In this document: positions 20,241 to 60,535 of the stretch, piece after piece
How positions within the stretch are numbered: position 1 is the stretch's first letter
Layout of the letters: every line of letters begins with the position of its first letter
DNA from: Phycisphaerae bacterium
Lineage (GTDB): Bacteria > Planctomycetota > Phycisphaerae > UBA1845 > Fen-1342
NCBI GenBank assembly: GCA_022072445.1
Contig: JAJVHV010000023.1
Span: 62,001-126,000, forward strand
Reading direction: 5' to 3'
Length of the DNA stretch: 64,000 nucleotides
Position numbers and translations under genes: made by a program
The notes under the pieces: model-generated
Databases searched by the model: none
What the model saw: only the letters and a program-made list of their open reading frames with translations
Told to the model about the DNA's origin: nothing

Positions 20241-23200
20241 CTACTGATTGACGACCAGCATGATCAGCGCGGTCACGCCCGGGCCGACGGTGGTCGCATC
20301 CACGCCGCCCAGTCCGTTAATCACCAGCGTGTCGCTGGCCGCCTCCGAATGCATGATCCGGACCGAAGCAGGCAGACCGGTCACGTCGACCGCGCCGGCA
20401 TTCGCGGTGAGGTCGATCGAGTCGGGAGCCGGCGTTCCGTTCACCGCGATGGTGTCGGGTTGCGCGTCGCCGCTGCTGCCGCCGATGGTTCCGGCGAGAT
20501 CGACGTTCACCTGGGTCATCGCGGTGCCGCTCAGGTCGTTCACCATGACAGTATCGGCGCCACCCAGCGTGCGCAGGTCAAACTGTTCGACGCCGTCGGC
20601 GTCCAGAACCACGCTGCCGATGTTGCGCGTGAAGCGCAGCCGCGCGGCGTTGGCCGAGAAATCGAGCACCTCGCCGATGTTCGAGCCGTGGAACAGCACC
20701 CGGTCATGACCGGCCTGGCCCTCGACGGTGTCATTCCCGTCACCCGGATCCCACTGGAACGTGTCGTCGCCAGCGCCCATCAGTACGGTGTCGTTGCCCT
20801 GCTGACCATCGATGAAGTCGTCATCGTCGCCACCCATCAGCACGTCGGCACCGTTGCTGCCCAGCAGCGCGTCGTCGCCCGCTCCGCCGTCGGCCGTGAT
20901 CTGGATCAGCGCCGCGAGATTGCCCGTGCACGCCAGGCTGTCGTCGCCGCCCTGGGCGTTCAGCACAAGCTGCTCGCACGTTCCGATGTCGAGGCTGAAC
21001 GGACCCGGGTTGAGCCGATCCAACCGCACGCGCGTGCCATTGGCCGTCACCGTGAAGCTCTCCCCCGCGCCGCTGCCGTTCACCTCCACCACGTCCACAC
21101 CGTCGGCGCCTTCGATCAGGTCCGAACCGTCGCCGTGCTCCCAGATGAAGCGGTCGTCGCCGAAGCCAAGTTGCACAATGTCGTCGCTGCCACCACCGGC
21201 AATCGTGTCGTTGTCGCCGTCGCCGTTCAGTTGATCGGAGCCCGCGCTGCCGAACAGCACGTCGTCACCGGGCCCGCCATTCATCGTCAATCCGACGACG
21301 CCGGACGGCAGGCCGGCTGCTTGCATGTCGTCGTCGCCGTCCAGCCCGTTGACCGTCAGCCGGTCGAAAGCGGCCTCGGACGCGGCAATCTGCACGAGCA
21401 CCGACAGACCCGTCACGAGCGTGCCGCTGATACCGTTGGCGACGACGACCTCGTCGGCGTCGTTGGTGCAATTCACGATGACGCCGTCCGGCTGCGCGTC
21501 GCCCGCGCCCCCGCCGATGGTCCCGGCGAGGTTGATGTTCGCACCGGCGAGCGCCGTGCCGCTCAGATCGTTGATGGTGATCACGTCGGCGCCGCCGAGC
21601 GTGCGCAGGTCAAACTGTTCGACGCCGTCGGCGTCCAGGACCACGCTGCCCACGTTTCGCGTGAAGCGCAGCCGCGCGGCGTTGGCCGAGAAGTCGAGCA
21701 CCTCGCCGATGTTCGAGCCGTTGAATGTTACGGCGTCGACACCCGCGTCGCCTTCGACCGCGTCATTCCCGTCGCCCGGGTCCCACTGGAACGTGTCGTC
21801 GCCAGCGCCCATCAGTACGGTGTCGTTGCCCTGCTGGCCATCGATAAAGTCGTCATCGTCGCCACCCATCAGCACGTCGGCACCGTTGCTGCCCAGCAGC
21901 GTGTCGTCGCCCGGCCCGCCGTCCATCGTGATCGGCACCAGCGCCGCCAGATTGCCCGTGCAGCTCACCATGTCGGCCCCGTCGTGCGTGTGGACCGCCA
22001 GCGTCAGGGATCCACTGACGCCCACCGCTGCCGAGAATCCGCTCACGTCCACGCGCGCCTGCGTGCCATTGGCTGTAATCGTCGCGGCGTCGGCTTCGTC
22101 CGAGCCATGGATGTTCACCAGGTCGCCGCCGACGCCGTCGACGACGATCTGATCGGCGGCCTCGTAGCCCCTCACGCGCACTTCGGCCGCCATCTCGACT
22201 CGCACGAACGCCCCGTCGGACGAGATGTCAAACGTGTCGGCGTCCGGCGTTCCGACAATATTCACCGAATCATCGACTCCGTCGCCGCTGCTGCCGCCGA
22301 TGGTTCCGGCGAGATCGACGTTCACCTGGGTCATCGCGGTGCCGCTCAGGTCGTTCACCATGACAGTATCGGCGCCACCCAGCGTGCGCAGGTCAAACTG
22401 TTCGACGCCGTCGGCGTCCAGAACCACGCTGCCGATGTTGCGCGTGAAGCGCAGCCGCGCGGCGTTGGCCGAGAAATCGAGCACCTCGCCGATGTTCGAG
22501 CCGTGGAACAGCACCCGGTCATGACCGGCCTGGCCCTCGACGGTGTCATTCCCGTCACCCGGATCCCACTGGAACGTGTCGTCGCCAGCGCCCATCAGTA
22601 CGGTGTCGTTGCCCTGCTGACCATCGATGAAGTCGTCATCGTCGCCACCCATCAGCACGTCGGCACCGTTGCTGCCCAGCAGCGCGTCGTCGCCCGCTCC
22701 GCCGTCGGCCGTGATCTGGATCAGCGCCGCGAGATTGCCCGTGCACGCCAGGCTGTCGTCGCCGCCCTGGGCGTTCAGCACAAGCTGCTCGCACGTTCCG
22801 ATGTCGAGGCTGAACGGACCCGGGTTGAGCCGATCCAACCGCACGCGCGTGCCATTGGCCGTCACCGTGAAGCTCTCCCCCGCGCCGCTGCCGTTCACCT
22901 CCACCACGTCCACACCGTCGGCGCCTTCGATCAGGTCCGAACCGTCGCCGTGCTCCCAGATGAAGCGGTCATCTCCGTCGCCGAGGAAGGCGGAGTCCTC
23001 TCCCGGCCCGCCCATCAACGTCTCGCCGCCGCTGCCGCCGAACAGAGTGTCGTCGCCGCACCCGCCTTGGATCAGCGTCGCCTCGCTGTCGGTGAAGACA
23101 CCGTTGATCTCGTCGATCCAGATCTCGTCGTCTCCGTCGCGCGCGTTGACGACGATGCGGTCGAACTCGCCGCGGTCGAACGCGAACTCCGGCTGCGCAT

Positions 23201-34200: not shown

Positions 34201-34272
34201 ACTCGCGTGCGGGGTTCTGGCAGGCGTTCTTGGCGGCGGGTCAACGACGGCCGTAACCCGCCCTACTCGCGC

Positions 34273-34430
34273 GTGGCCACGGGGGGCCTACGCTACGGCA
34301 AACAACGTGGCCACGGAGGGCCTACGCTACGGCAAACAACGTGGCCACGGAGGGCCTACGCTACGGCAAACAACGTGGCCACGGAGGGCCTACGCTACGG
34401 CAAACAACGTGGCCACAGAGGGCCTACGCG
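34273..34430. repeat. 34-bp tandem repeat array running into a gene's 3' end
   Basis: Four complete 34-bp units start at 34273, 34307, 34341 and 34375, each GTGGCCACGGAGGGCCTACG plus CTACGGCAAACAAC; the first differs by one base. A partial fifth unit (34409-34430) overlaps the stop codon of the - strand trans-sulfuration gene. GTGGCCAC is palindromic. Related words (GTAGCG-nGGCC-nCCGTGGCCACG) recur at 48308-48370. Confidence 0.85.
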
Positions 34431-35656
34431 ACGGTGGCGCGGAGCGCCTGTTCCAGGTCGGCGATCAGGTCACTCGCGTCCTCGATTCCCACGCTCAACC
34501 GCACCAGCCCGTCGACGATGCCGATCTGCTCGCGGATCTCGCGCGGCACGGACGCGTGCGTCATGATGGCCGGATGATTCACGAGCGACTCGACGCCACC
34601 CAGGCTCTCGGCGCAGGCGAAAAGCCTCGTCGCGGCCATGAATCGCGACGCGGCGCGGAGCCCGTCCTTGAGCACGCACGTCACCATGCCGCCGAAGCCC
34701 GACATCTGCCGCGCCGCCAGCGCGTGCTGCGGATGCGATTCGAGGCCGGGATAGATGACGCGCGAAAACGCCTTCTGGCCGAGCGCCCAGCGCGCGACCG
34801 CCGCCGCGTTCTCGCAATGCTGGCGCATGCGGATGTGTAGCGTCTTGATGCCGCGATGCGTCAGGAAGCAGTCGAACGGCCCGGGAACGCCCCCGGCCGC
34901 ATTCTGCGTAAATCGGATCGGATCGAGCACCGCCTGATTGGCGGCGACGACGGCGCCGCCGACCACGTCCGAATGGCCGCCGAGATATTTCGTGGTGCTG
35001 TGCAGCACCAGATCGGCGCCCAGCGCGATGGGCTGCTGCAGGGCCGGACTGGCGAACGTGTTATCGACCACCAGCACGATGCCGTCGTGACGCGCCGGCG
35101 GCACTCCCGGTGCCGCAGCAATCGCTTTCAGCGCGGCCGGCGTTCCCATCCCCAGCCGTCGCTCGGCTTCACGCACGCCGCGGGAGATCGCCTGAATATC
35201 CAGCAGATGCAGCATGGGGTTCGTCGGCGTCTCGATCCAGACCAGACGCGTGGTCGCGTCGATCAGGCCGATCAACGCCGCCGGGTCGGTGCTTCCCGTG
35301 TAGCGCGTCTGAAGGCCCCAGGGCTTGAAGACCCGCTCGAAGAGCCGAAACGTGCCGCCATAAAGATCGTTGTAGGCTACGATCGACTCTCCCGGCCGCA
35401 GGAGCGAAGTGATGATGGCCGAGGTCGCGGCCAGCCCGGACGCGAAGCAGGCGGCCGCCTGACCGCCCTCCAGAGCGGCGAGGCACTCCTGCAAGCCGGT
35501 GCGCGTTGGGTTATGCGTGCGCGAGTATTCGTAACCGCGGTGCTCGCCGGGGGCGGTCTGCGTGTAGGTGCTGGTGACGTAGATCGGGGGAACGGTAGCA
35601 CCGGTGGTGGGATCGGGCGCCTGACCGACGTGAATCGCGCGCGTGGCGAAGTTCAT
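34424..35656 (-). CDS. Cys/Met metabolism PLP enzyme (cystathionine gamma-synthase/lyase family)
   Basis: 410 residues from ATG 35656. FATRAIHVGQAPDPTTGATV, YEYSRTHNPTR and LEGGQAAACFASGLAA are family landmarks; the PLP lysine is K223 in LHSTTKYLGGHSD, with VLVVDNTFASP ahead of it. The enzyme takes part in trans-sulfuration (cystathionine synthesis or cleavage, or a related homoserine reaction); the family does not separate these by sequence alone. About 20 extra residues (REAERRLGMGTPAALKAIAA onward) lie just before VVDNTF where relatives have a short loop. The stop codon overlaps the last unit of a tandem array. Confidence 0.9.
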   Translation of the reverse strand: MNFATRAIHVGQAPDPTTGATVPPIYVTSTYTQTAPGEHRGYEYSRTHNPTRTGLQECLAALEGGQAAACFASGLAATSAIITSLLRPGESIVAYNDLYGGTFRLFERVFKPWGLQTRYTGSTDPAALIGLIDATTRLVWIETPTNPMLHLLDIQAISRGVREAERRLGMGTPAALKAIAAAPGVPPARHDGIVLVVDNTFASPALQQPIALGADLVLHSTTKYLGGHSDVVGGAVVAANQAVLDPIRFTQNAAGGVPGPFDCFLTHRGIKTLHIRMRQHCENAAAVARWALGQKAFSRVIYPGLESHPQHALAARQMSGFGGMVTCVLKDGLRAASRFMAATRLFACAESLGGVESLVNHPAIMTHASVPREIREQIGIVDGLVRLSVGIEDASDLIADLEQALRATVA

Positions 35657-53191: not shown

Positions 53192-53193
53192 GA

Positions 53194-53277
53194 GGGTTCG
53201 GGGTCCAGGATTCAGGGTTCAGGATTCAGGATTCAGGGTCCAGGATTCAGGGTTCAGGATTCAGGGTTCAGGGTCTA
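53194..53277. repeat. Heptamer tandem array (12 units)
   Basis: Twelve consecutive 7-bp units directly after the stop codon of the dockerin gene: GGATTCA, GGGTTCA, GGGTCCA in mixed order, starting GGGTTCG and ending GGGTCTA. Seven is not a multiple of three and no gene crosses it. Confidence 0.9.
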
Positions 53278-55321: not shown

Positions 55322-56220
55322 ACCCCGCACGCGCCGCGCCGCAGCGCATCCAGAAATTCCTCTCCGACGCGGGCGTCGCCTCGCGCCGCGCCGCCGAAGA
55401 GCTCGTCCTGGCCAGACGCGTGCTGATCAACGACCAGCCCGTCACCACGTTGCCCACCTTCGTCCGCCCGGGCACCGACCGCGTCATCGTCGATGGCGTG
55501 CCGGTGCGCGCCCAGCGGCTCGAATACTTCATCGTCCACAAGCCGGCCGGCGTCGTCTGCACGCAGCGCGACCCCGCCGGCCGCACGCGGTCGGTCGATC
55601 TCCTCCCGCCCAAACTCCCGCGCCTTTTCCCGGTCGGACGGCTCGAGGCCGACACCGAGGGCCTGCTCATCCTCACCAACGACGGCGAACTCGCCAATCG
55701 CATCGCTCACCCGCGCTACGGCGTCGAGCAGGTCTACTGCGCCGAGCTGCGCGGCCGCATGAGTGACGATTTGCCGGCCCAGTTGCTGCGCGGCGTCTAC
55801 GTCGCTGAAGGCCACATGCGCCCGCGCCGCGTCGATGTGATCCAGCGCGGACCGAATCGCTCGGTCATCGAGATCGAGCTGCAGGGCGGGCGCCGCCTCG
55901 AAATCCGCCGCGCGATCGCCATGTGCGGTCACAAGGTCCGCCGGCTGACACGCGTCCGCATCGGACCCATCGAGTTGCGCGGCTTGCCGGCCGGCGCGGC
56001 CCGGCGGCTCACCCCGGCCGAGCTGCGTGCCCTGAAATCGGGCGCGCCTGCCACGCCGCCGTCACGCCGCTTCCGGCCTCAGCCCGCCCCATCCGCTGAT
56101 GCCGCGCGGCCGCCTCGCGCCCCGCGCGATTCCCGCGCACCTCGCGCGACGCGCGATTCCCACGCGCCCCGCGCACCTCGCGCCCAGCGCCGCACACGGC
56201 GAAAAACCGTCCGGCCATGA
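55318..56220 (+). CDS. RsuA/RluB-family pseudouridine synthase with changed catalytic motif
   Basis: 300 residues. An S4 RNA-binding domain (about 8-60, RIQKFLSDAGVASRRAAEEL, VLINDQPV) is followed by the RsuA/RluB/E/F catalytic domain: YFIVHKPAGVVCT, VGRLEADTEGLLILTNDG, and IRRAIAMCGHKVRRLTRVRIG. The normal catalytic aspartate in GRLD is Glu110 here (codon GAG, 55645-55647), with Asp112 two places on. The tail (about 245-300) is Arg/Ala/Pro-rich, probably an RNA-binding extension. It modifies uridine in rRNA if active. The start ATG overlaps the upstream stop (ATGA), as does its own end with the next gene. Confidence 0.88.
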   Translation: MNPARAAPQRIQKFLSDAGVASRRAAEELVLARRVLINDQPVTTLPTFVRPGTDRVIVDGVPVRAQRLEYFIVHKPAGVVCTQRDPAGRTRSVDLLPPKLPRLFPVGRLEADTEGLLILTNDGELANRIAHPRYGVEQVYCAELRGRMSDDLPAQLLRGVYVAEGHMRPRRVDVIQRGPNRSVIEIELQGGRRLEIRRAIAMCGHKVRRLTRVRIGPIELRGLPAGAARRLTPAELRALKSGAPATPPSRRFRPQPAPSADAARPPRAPRDSRAPRATRDSHAPRAPRAQRRTRRKTVRP

Positions 56221-57080
56221 CCGCCGCCGCCCCCTGCACGCCGCCGATCGATCTCGGCGGCTGCCGAATACGCGTCATCTCCGGCGGTGCGTTGCGGCTC
56301 GATGGCGGCGCGATGTTCGGCATCATCCCCCGCGCGCTCTGGTCGCGCCACACTTCCCCGGACGAACAGAACCGCATCGTGTTGGCTTGTAACTGCCTCT
56401 ACGTCGAGTGGGACGGCAGCCCGCGCCGCGCGATCGTCGAGGTCGGTCACGGACCGAAGTTCGCCGAAAAAGAATGCCAGATCTACGCCATCGACCCGCA
56501 ACGCTGGCTGCTCCCCGCCCTGATCGCCGCGGGTATCGACCCGGAGTCCATCACCGACGTCGTCCTGACCCATCTGCACTTCGACCACGCCGGCGGCCTC
56601 ACGCACCCGGCGACCGACCCGCGCCCGACCTTCCCGCGCGCCGCAGTCCACGTCCAGCGCTCCGAATTCGACGACGCCCGCGCCAACTTCGGCGTCATGA
56701 CGCAGACCTATCGCGAGGAGAACTTCGCTCCGATCGACCACGCCGATCTCTGGCGCCTGCACGCCGGCGAAGCCCAACCCCTGCCCGGCGTGACCGTCCT
56801 GCCCAGCCCCGGCCATACCCGCGGACACCAGTCCGCCCTCATCGCCGGCCGCAACGCGTCGCTCCTCTTCCTCGGCGACGTCATGCCCACGCGCGACCAC
56901 GTCGGTCCGGCCTACAACATGGGCTACGACCTCTTCCCCCTGGACAACGTGGCGACCAAGAAGCGCGTGCTCGGCCGCGCCGCGGCGGAGAACTGGCTGC
57001 TGCTGATCGATCACGAGCCGCGCACGCCGCTGGTGCGCGTCGTCGCCGATTCCGCCCGCTTCCGAATTGAGCCAGTTTGA
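56217..57080 (+). CDS. Metallo-beta-lactamase-fold hydrolase
   Basis: 287 residues. T118-H-L-H-F-D-H124 (TDVVLTHLHFDHAGGL) carries three zinc ligands of the MBL fold; later ligands are in PGHTRGHQSALI and LFLGDVMPTRDH, and a final His in LIDHEP. The first ~110 residues have an MBL-like strand pattern (LYVEWDGSPRRAIVEVGHG). The subgroup resembles quorum-lactonase-like and N-acyl-type hydrolases, but the substrate is unknown. It overlaps the pseudouridine synthase gene by four bases, ending a three-gene overlapping unit that starts with the FlgI-like gene. Confidence 0.85.
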   Translation: MTAAAPCTPPIDLGGCRIRVISGGALRLDGGAMFGIIPRALWSRHTSPDEQNRIVLACNCLYVEWDGSPRRAIVEVGHGPKFAEKECQIYAIDPQRWLLPALIAAGIDPESITDVVLTHLHFDHAGGLTHPATDPRPTFPRAAVHVQRSEFDDARANFGVMTQTYREENFAPIDHADLWRLHAGEAQPLPGVTVLPSPGHTRGHQSALIAGRNASLLFLGDVMPTRDHVGPAYNMGYDLFPLDNVATKKRVLGRAAAENWLLLIDHEPRTPLVRVVADSARFRIEPV

Positions 57081-57148
57081 ACGTAGCACACCCGCCCCCG
57101 GCCCCGGGGGTATCCAGTCGGCGCGAACGCACCAAGCGTAGCGCGGGT

Positions 57149-57542
57149 GCCCTGCCGACGGCCTTCGCGTCCATTGCGCGGGTGCGCGGGTGCCCTGCCG
57201 ACGGCGCGGGTGCCCTGCCGACGGCCTTTGCGTCGGCAGGGCTTCGACATCGCGCGGGTGCCCTGCCGACGGCCGTTGCGTCGGCAGGGCTTCGACATCG
57301 CCGGACGACCGCGTAGACTGAGGGAATGTCCATCTCCGACGCTTTGCGCGACATCGCTTGGGTGCCCTGCCGACGGCCGTTGCGTCGGCAGGGCTTCGAC
57401 ATCGCCGGACGACCGCGTAGACTGAGGGAATGTCCATCTCCGACGCTTTGCGCGACATCGCTTGGGTGCCCTGCCGACGGCCTTTGCGTCGGCAGGGCTT
57501 CGACATCGCCGGACGACCGCGTAGACTGAGGGAATGTCCATC
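57149..57542 (+). repeat. REP hairpins in 104-bp tandem units upstream of a RAYT gene
   Basis: The REP element is GCCCTGCCGAC, a 9-nt loop (GGCCGTTGC or GGCCTTTGC) and GTCGGCAGGGC. Complete hairpins lie at 57212-57242, 57260-57290, 57364-57394 and 57468-57498, and lone left arms at 57149 and 57192. From 57260 on, the period is exactly 104 bp; each unit holds one hairpin and then a copy of the RAYT start region (ATGTCCATCTCCGACGC at 57326, 57430 and 57534). The first two starts run into the next unit and stop; only 57534 opens the transposase. This fills the 453-bp gap. Confidence 0.9.
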
Positions 57543-58124
57543 TCCGACGCTTTGCGCCGCCCGGCCGACGTCGGGTTTGACGACGCGCGATTCCTCACCT
57601 TCTCGTGTTTCCGACGTCAGGCGCTTCTTTCAAAGGACCGGGCCCGCGGCTGGTTTGTCGATGCCCTGGATCGCTCGCGCCGCACACACGGATTCCACCT
57701 GTGGGCCTGGGTGATCATGCCCGAGCATGTTCACCTGCTCCTCTGGCCGGGACTGGAGCCTGCGCAGCTGGCGCACATACTCTACACACTGAAGAAATCC
57801 GTCAGCAACCGCGCGCTCGCCTTCGTGCGCTCGAAGGCGCCGGAGTTCCTGCCCGCCCTGACCAACGTGGATCGCCACGGCACCGTGACGCACCGCTTCT
57901 GGCAGCGCGGCGGCGGGTACGATCGCAGCGAGTGCTCGGCCGATGAGATCTGGGAGAAGATCGACTACATCCACGCAAACCCAGTCCGGCGCGGGCTGTG
58001 TGCTCATCCGACCGACTGGGCCTGGTCGAGTGCCCGGGCGTACGCCACTCGCTCGGGTCAGCCGCTCTCGATTGACTTTGAGTCCCTTCCCGACCCGCCG
58101 CGCGGCTACCGGCCGCCGTTCTGA
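57534..58124 (+). CDS. REP-associated tyrosine transposase (RAYT, Y1/HUH family)
   Basis: 196 residues. The HUH motif is H65-V-H67 in WVIMPEHVHLLLWP, and the likely nucleophile is Y145 in KIDYIHANPVRRGL, followed by DWAWSSARAY, all signatures of RAYT transposases that cut at REP hairpins as single strands. HRFWQRGGGYDR is also typical. Its start region is repeated in the tandem units upstream, and REP copies on its two sides are in opposite orientation, as seen at other RAYT loci. The gene is intact. RAYTs are usually domesticated single-copy genes that spread or maintain REPs in one genome. Confidence 0.93.
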   Translation: MSISDALRRPADVGFDDARFLTFSCFRRQALLSKDRARGWFVDALDRSRRTHGFHLWAWVIMPEHVHLLLWPGLEPAQLAHILYTLKKSVSNRALAFVRSKAPEFLPALTNVDRHGTVTHRFWQRGGGYDRSECSADEIWEKIDYIHANPVRRGLCAHPTDWAWSSARAYATRSGQPLSIDFESLPDPPRGYRPPF

Positions 58125-58167
58125 ATTTCGAGGGCGCCCCTGCGCGCCACGGCGCACGCACGCGACG

Positions 58168-58198
58168 GCCCTGCCGACGCAACGGCCGTCGGCAGGGC
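58168..58198 (-). repeat. Inverted REP copy downstream of RAYT
   Basis: GCCCTGCCGAC, loop GCAACGGCC, GTCGGCAGGGC: the reverse complement of the upstream units. Flanked on the left by CACGCACGCGACG, which also flanks the copy at 60341. Confidence 0.9.
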
Positions 58199-58202
58199 AC
58201 CC

Positions 58203-60007: not shown

Positions 60008-60535
60008 ATGCTCCGAGTCGCGGTCTCGTGTTCGCTTACGGCACTTTTCGCTGCCGTCGCTTCTGGCCAGACGCAAGGTACAAAAGGTGAATGGGGCGAC
60101 GTGTTCACGCCGCCCCATCAGAGTATTCACCTCGTGCGGATGAAGGACGGCCGCGTGCTGTCGATCGAGTCAACGTATGACTACAAGGCTGACACGCCGT
60201 TCCGCGTTGCGCAGGACACCGTCGTGATCGACCCCGCACACGCGAACTACCCCGACAACGTCACAGTCTACAACGAGGACGGCTGGGAGATGAACCAGAT
60301 CGTCGCCGGCGACGGCGACGCACGCGACGGCCCTGCGACGGCCCTGCCGACGCAACGGCCGTCGGCAGGGCACCCGCGCTCGGGACGAGCGTCGGCCGGA
60401 CAAATCGCCGCCCCGACGCCCTCCCACGGAAGAGCCCCTTGCGGCGGTACAATTCACTGGGCGCGCAGCGCCGCACTGTGCGGGCGGCCCGTCCGCCCCG
60501 ATTTCTGGCCGCCGAAACCGCGAGCCTACGTCTGA
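60008..60535 (+). pseudogene. Truncated secreted protein, interrupted by a REP element
   Basis: The frame begins with a signal peptide (1-20, ASG) and ~80 residues (GEWGDVFTPPHQSIHLVRMK, DGRVLSIESTYDY) that resemble the N-terminus of galactose/glyoxal-oxidase-like propellers. At about residue 100 the sequence becomes DGDARDGPATALPTQRPSAG, the translation of the REP element at 60341-60371 and its flank, and then Arg/Pro/Ala-rich sequence to a stop. The expected propeller is missing. The gene looks broken by the REP insertion, perhaps with a deletion. Confidence 0.55.
60341..60371 (-). repeat. Inverted REP copy within the truncated gene
   Basis: Same orientation as 58168-58198, with the same left flank (GACGCACGCGACGGCCCTG) and a second partial CGACGGCCCTG before the hairpin. 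Confidence 0.9.

Follow-up and report, generated by a model that had tools for sequence, protein, structure and literature searches.

Repeats of the REP family form head-to-tail arrays in the genome analysed here, and the units of these arrays have a 5' edge fixed at GC^N(1-2)GGGTG and a variable 3' edge. One array lies at the start of the gene for the cognate transposase (RAYT) and has copied the promoter-like site and the start codon of this gene; its unit departs from the common 5' edge. The locus was analysed in a window of 64 kb, by which we mean the whole stretch of DNA studied, and its features are collected in Table 1.

An intact REPtron with dispersed REPs

Judged from its gene and repeats, the locus is an intact REPtron, in which a Y1 HUH transposase (RAYT) is encoded between inverted copies of its own REP. 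The protein reached 84.8 bits with the NCBIfam model NF047646 (REP_Tyr_transpos; cut-off 80), and a weak phmmer match (3.9e-5) to the TnpArep structure 4er8 spanned both motifs. A Pfam search of the protein gave no match at 0.001. The motifs were further examined in an alignment of the window protein with 24 of the 29 loci L072-L100, where H65, H67, Y145 and N149 were each identical in all 25 proteins. Left out of this alignment were L087, which has an internal stop, and L079, L080, L095 and L097, which are without one open stretch holding both motifs. Thus, an HUH motif and a catalytic tyrosine with a metal ligand at about Y+4 are present, as is a gene between inverted REPs that recur across the genome. 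The canonical GT[AG]G foot of RAYT-associated REPs was not found; the foot is GTGC. The perfect inverted REP downstream (58168-58198) begins 43 nt beyond the end of the gene. RAYT matches (E up to 1e-10) were encoded by 83 of the 150 relatives searched, and the titled records were mostly Planctomycetota and Phycisphaerales MAGs. The initial annotation had described a RAYT with cognate REPs, which was borne out by the NF047646 score above cut-off and by the genome-wide dispersal of the REPs. A metallo-beta-lactamase-fold protein is encoded at window 56217-57080; its best NCBIfam model, YtnP lactonase, gave 163.7 bits, far under the cut-off of 425.

Table 1. Features of the RAYT locus and its REPs (window coordinates)
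Feature	Position	Strand	Basis
RAYT / TnpAREP, 196 aa; H65-V-H67, Y145 and N149 intact	57534..58124	+	NF047646 above cut-off; motif alignment
5' part of REP (GGGTG, left arm and loop; right arm missing)	57145..57169	+	REP copy count; right arm absent
Half REP, cut after GGC, followed directly by GCGGGTG of the next copy	57188..57205	+	20-bp step, right-hand site ccgacggc^CTTTGC
REP with GGGTG foot; hairpin 57212-57242, 12-bp arms, 7-nt loop	57208..57242	+	Hairpin scan, copy count
104-bp unit 1: hairpin 57260-57290, promoter-like site 57292-57319, ATG 57326 and 8 codons	57245..57348	+	
104-bp unit 2: hairpin 57364-57394, promoter-like site 57396-57423, ATG 57430	57349..57452	+	
104-bp unit 3: hairpin 57468-57498, promoter-like site 57500-57527, true RAYT ATG 57534	57453..57556	+	
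67-aa ORF opened by copied ATG 1, with its TAG ending 4 nt short of the RAYT start	57326..57529	+	Mechanical ORF, predicted only
94-aa ORF from the second copied ATG; overlaps RAYT out of frame	57430..57714	+	Mechanical ORF, predicted only
Inverted cognate REP downstream of RAYT	58168..58202	-	Complementary to 57254-57290 over 37 nt (100%)
Dispersed lone member of this REP family, 2.2 kb downstream	60341..60375	-	Pattern search, BLAST

The REP repeat is not private to the array. Within the 64-kb window, the REP arm CCCTGCCGACG had 21 matches with up to 1 mismatch against 4.7 expected, which is not chance. The genome-wide count proposed along with the initial annotation was run with the hairpin pattern (up to 2 mismatches) and yielded 27 distinct places, so that a lack of other REPs is excluded; the reversed pattern, which served as a control, yielded 0. 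BLAST of the array against the genome gave 51 matches. In 28 fetched stretches, 61 REP copies were counted, with halves and diverged copies included. Same-strand arrays (neighbours within 400 bp) were present in 15 of the 28 stretches and opposite-strand neighbours within the same distance in 2. The genome is therefore not a REPIN genome: REPs lying mainly in close inverted pairs, as in REPINs or BIMEs, were not what was observed.

Other tandem repeats of the window, as reported by TRF, are the heptamer AGGGTTC (11.7 copies, 53193-53274), a 34-bp unit (4.8 copies with 97% matches, 34272-34434) and an identical 27-bp consensus at 20817-20876, 21849-21908 and 22632-22691, which perhaps corresponds to repeated protein domains.

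The start of the transposase gene lies in a 104-bp array

Three head-to-tail units of 104 bp occupy positions 57245-57556, with pairwise differences at 2, 3 and 1 positions; units 2 and 3 are the pair that differs by a single base. TRF described the stretch 57245-57557 by a period of 104, 3.0 copies, 98% matches and a score of 605. Each unit contains one REP hairpin with 12-bp arms, followed by a promoter-like site and ATGTCCATCTCCGACGCTTTGCG. The coding part copied per unit comprises 23 nt and a shared C, corresponding to the codons MSISDALR. Of the three ATGs (57326, 57430 and 57534), only the last opens the 196-aa RAYT. The first two are out of frame with RAYT because 104 mod 3 = 2, and open ORFs of 67 aa and 94 aa. 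Mapping of units, ATGs and frames hence confirmed the architecture initially proposed, namely a REP hairpin and the first eight RAYT codons per unit, and three ATGs of which the last is the gene start. Upstream of the units, one further full REP (57208-57242), shorter REP pieces (57145, 57188) and a GGGTGC scrap at 57180 were found. The copy number is that of one draft assembly; an assembly artefact as the source of the array is unlikely, since the units differ from one another.

The promoter-like sequence TCGACA-16-TAGACT sits between hairpin and ATG in each unit, and was thus found three times, against 0.1 expected in shuffles. A transcript from the last of these sites would start about at the true ATG and would have a leader without decoy ATG or hairpin. 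Read-through would yield a transcript that includes two decoy ATGs as well as strong hairpins; folding of a stretch covering the last two starts and their hairpins gave a z of -2.0. An effect of the decoy starts or hairpins on RAYT expression is possible.

Array units have a fixed 5' edge and a ragged 3' edge

When neighbouring REPs of one array were compared side by side, the 3' flank was common to them and the 5' flank was not. From 27 same-strand rows a set of 21 distinct junctions was obtained; dropped rows were C15 copy 3, C8 copies 3-5, window copy 6 and C14:61.2 kb copy 2, which is nested and has flanks identical over 17 nt. Between the first copy and the next, the 5' flanks of these 21 junctions agreed 20 times at position -1, 19 times at -2, 21 times at -3, 18 times at -4 and 3 times at -5, compared to 18.1, 8.9, 15.8, 14.8 and 4.7 expected after shuffling across loci. 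Agreement before GGGTG falls to chance at -5. A GC at -4/-3 or -3/-2, that is 1-2 nt before GGGTG, was present at all 21 junctions and in 20 of the 21 first copies. In a set of 50 distinct REP 5' flanks, isolated copies included, 46 had GC within the last 4 nt against a background of 38% (binomial 2e-15, relatedness not corrected), and base composition was flat from -5 outward.

The old right-hand site was readable at 11 of the 21 junctions (8 from the junction table, three more from local alignment or printed sites). In 10 of these the cut could be placed directly after GC; the exception is C5:175.5 kb, which has CC. The 3' edge of the units falls at another GC located 20 to 341 bp downstream, sometimes within a REP, which explains the half REPs.

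The 104-bp unit breaks the 5' rule. It starts at CGACATCGC, about 10 nt (9-11) before the foot, with a flank agreement of 0, and units 2 and 3 have TT in place of GC before GGGTG. Its 3' edge does follow GC (TTTGCGC^CGCC). Given the deviating 5' edge, the 104-bp unit was rejected as one more rule-abiding event.

A second copy of the REPtron and the ancestral state

A second REP-RAYT-REP unit, partial and internally deleted, is present on contig C11 of the same genome (G000 C11:122671-123135, L055). REP and RAYT 5' end match over 219 bp (98%), with the first 149 coding bases identical, and the RAYT 3' end with REP matches over 162 bp (96%) and again over 91 bp (95%), representing two copies of the 3' end. 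The 160-bp step on C11 starts at the 5' edge of the REP. As read from these alignments, the 3' end of RAYT is duplicated together with the REP in the same manner as the RAYT start in the window. The presence of this copy suggests a recent movement or duplication of the whole REPtron.

The REP-plus-start is single on C11. In the nearest relatives, G022 and G019 (RAYT 72% and 70% identical, respectively), the upstream REP is likewise single and the start is not copied. Therefore, a single unit is most likely the ancestral state, and the 104-bp array is probably derived and private to this genome within the sampling, which included no same-genus genome among the 150 relatives searched. That the unit is single on C11 and in both relatives supports the initial view that the array arose by tandem duplication of REP and RAYT 5' end. 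The accompanying idea of a duplication at the transposase's own start stood only in part: REP and RAYT 5' end were indeed duplicated, but the start is not special, as REPs are duplicated with their 3' neighbour genome-wide.

The guide rule and REP flanks in other genomes

A rule that links foot and cleavage site is available for one group-3 enzyme. According to the accessible part of Corneloup 2021 (PMC8266576), the dinucleotide at which it cleaves is set by pairing with foot bases: GTAG corresponds to CT and CA, and when this foot was mutated to GTGG or GTAC, cleavage occurred at CC or at GA and GT, respectively. From this pairing, as far as that part describes it, a GTGC foot leads to GC as the cleavage dinucleotide. 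The rule was applied after GC had been seen, and the agreement is consistency, not a passed prediction.

Feet differ between genomes, with GTGC in the window genome and GTGG in G086 and G095. In a strict hairpin scan, a GGGTG-footed hairpin and its inverse flanked RAYT in 10 of the 30 loci L071-L100, own locus included; the hairpin sequences at these 10 loci were quite different, and the GGGTG foot was common. REPs of the two nearest RAYT genomes, G019 and G022, had GC in 17/17 flanks, and the GTGC family of G089 in 7/7. In the CACGGACAAG family of G007, GC was in most cases shifted outward by one base (G at -5 in 19/29, C at -4 in 20/29). GTGC-foot REPs of G020 showed GC in only 2/8 flanks, and the second GTGC families of G007 and G015, judged by eye, mostly have TT or AT before GGGTG. 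In 34 flanks of the GTGG family of G086 there was no excess of CC or CA (CC 7/34, background 21%; CA 1/34, background 17%), and neither dinucleotide was seen by eye in the GTGG family of G095. Of 15 same-strand pairs outside the genome, three fitted roughly (G019, two; G015, one); the remaining five from G007/G015 and each of the seven from G095 did not. The mixed flank results reject the guide rule as a general rule across GTGC and GTGG REP families.

Several of these genomes have repeat structures of their own. RAYT copies 1,578 bp apart, with one internal TGA each, lie at G015:C1 2614693, 2616271, 2617849 and further positions, a tandemly amplified series that is possibly dead. One REP pattern had 382 matches in G095 (both strands, up to 1 mismatch), many of them in close inverted pairs; by this pattern count, G095 is a REPIN-rich relative of a REPIN-poor genome. 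In roughly two thirds of the 34 REPs of G086, a more extended 5' flank is common to the copies (about GCATCCCATTCT ahead of GGGTGG), and the repeat unit of this genome may reach beyond the hairpin. Dispersed REPs of the G007 CACGGACAAG family have about 50 nt of 3' flank in common, including a second small hairpin (CACTGCTCAAGAGCAGTG), and the mobile piece of this family seems bipartite.

Origin of the array units

We propose that REPs multiply locally as head-to-tail units, with the 5' edge just before the GGGTG foot and the 3' edge at some later GC, whereby each new unit would take along a variable piece of DNA 3' of the REP. RAYT would cut single-stranded DNA at GC dinucleotides picked by the GTGC foot and then rejoin it. 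For the REP upstream of RAYT, the carried piece is the promoter-like site and the first codons of the gene; as the DNA that flanks its own REP on the 3' side, the RAYT start was duplicated with it. The step from two to three 104-bp units would most simply be ordinary slippage or recombination between identical units. Such cutting and joining at GC by RAYT is the mechanism that we prefer for the array units, with our judgement evenly balanced as to whether it is correct. It is weakened by the 10 of 21 junctions at which no right-hand site is readable, by the deviating 5' edge of the 104-bp unit and by the other genomes, most of which differ. More tentatively, and with doubt outweighing confidence, REP copying might be viewed as one-ended, guide-directed strand transfer: RAYT would set the 5' edge by the dinucleotide that the foot dictates, any later match would serve as the 3' edge, and arrays would both reflect the cleavage specificity of the enzyme and pick up adjacent DNA, even promoters and starts.

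The transposase would be unnecessary if the units arose at the strong hairpin by replication slippage or by template switching at microhomologies. The polymerase would stall, or the new strand would fold, at the REP foot; after release, synthesis would re-prime at a 2-4 nt match, and the RAYT start would be copied because it adjoins the hairpin. Indeed, most readable junctions permit 2-4 nt of common sequence, and the hairpin is strong, with 12-bp arms and a z of -2.5 for the 104-bp unit folded as ssDNA. Edges away from GGGTG, in the 104-bp unit and in several G095 and G007 pairs, also fit slippage, one off-edge pair has a 17-nt match (L389), and the short truncated REP pieces would be typical slippage leftovers. 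However, the free edge should then be scattered to either side of the hairpin, which is symmetric. This is not what was observed: 5' agreement ends at most 6 nt from the foot at every junction but that of the 104-bp unit (20 of 21), 0 of the 11 readable right-hand edges lie at the 3' foot, and isolated dispersed REPs have the same 5' edge as array copies. We consider slippage a serious contender, which is nevertheless rather to be doubted than believed.

Ordinary unequal recombination at one locus, by which the 104-bp array would be an accident without wider meaning, agrees with the single-base difference between units 2 and 3, as for recent homologous expansion, and with a copy number taken from one draft genome. 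It is improbable as the full account, leaving unexplained both the first duplication and 15 other same-strand REP arrays. Least probable of all is that the array has been kept by selection, with decoy starts, multiple promoters or leader hairpins adjusting the expression of RAYT. The excess of promoter-like sites (three against 0.1 expected) and the stop of the first decoy ORF 4 nt before the true ATG would suit such tuning, but the two nearest relatives have a single upstream REP, and the last promoter-like site would bypass every decoy.

Relation to known systems

As described in the accessible parts of Nunvar 2010, Quentin 2018 and Corneloup 2021, REPtrons resemble the present locus in the Y1 HUH enzyme with HVH, Y and N at Y+4, the gene between inverted REPs, the dispersal of REPs and the unpaired foot 5' of the hairpin. 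They differ in the canonical GT[AG]G foot, which is GTGC (GGGTGC) here, and in the arrangement of REPs, which here are single or head-to-tail and hardly ever inverted pairs. The sections of Quentin 2018 (PMC6006769) consulted give GT[AG]G as the canonical foot and mention REPs that have inserted into RAYT genes; subclass 2.6 and class 3 are listed there with non-canonical feet. By these sections, GT[AG]G therefore marks most, not all, of the RAYT family. Tandem REPs reiterated with flanking DNA segments, and REP clusters adjoining RAYT genes, are known from the available portions of Di Nocera 2013 and Bertels and Rainey 2011. The arrays described here likewise hold REPs in tandem together with flanking DNA. 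Unlike the clusters in those portions, their units share the 3' flank only and begin at a single fixed place ahead of the foot, and the RAYT promoter-like site and start codon are part of one array. The one-sided edge, the GC junction and the copied RAYT start were not found in the parts of the REP/RAYT literature surveyed, mostly open-access, and the excerpt of RepRanger 2025 (PMC12306157) makes no mention of planctomycetes, tandem or RAYT. Head-to-tail REP clusters with flanks are thus already known, and relative to these partial sources the new part is the one-sided edge together with the copied RAYT start.

IS200/IS605 elements are similar in that their hairpin is preceded by a guide on its 5' side and a short target adjoins the left end, also 5' of it, and their cut-and-join chemistry would yield the edge observed here. 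They differ in that the repeated piece here is a REP with a ragged tail. A defined right end was not found in the REPs of this genome, and for movement of one unit with defined ends there is one partial, internally deleted copy of the RAYT unit on C11. One fixed and one variable end, like those of the array units, also characterize the one-ended transposition of IS91, ISCR and Helitron elements; these belong to another HUH class and act on a kilobase scale, so that the likeness is an analogy only.

The spread of REP sequences was termed unresolved in the accessible part of Corneloup 2021 (PMC8266576). The window shows the copying process on the promoter region and start of the transposase itself, and C11 shows it on the 3' end. 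If the junctions record RAYT cuts, cleavage specificity would be readable from genomes and could be tested with one purified protein.
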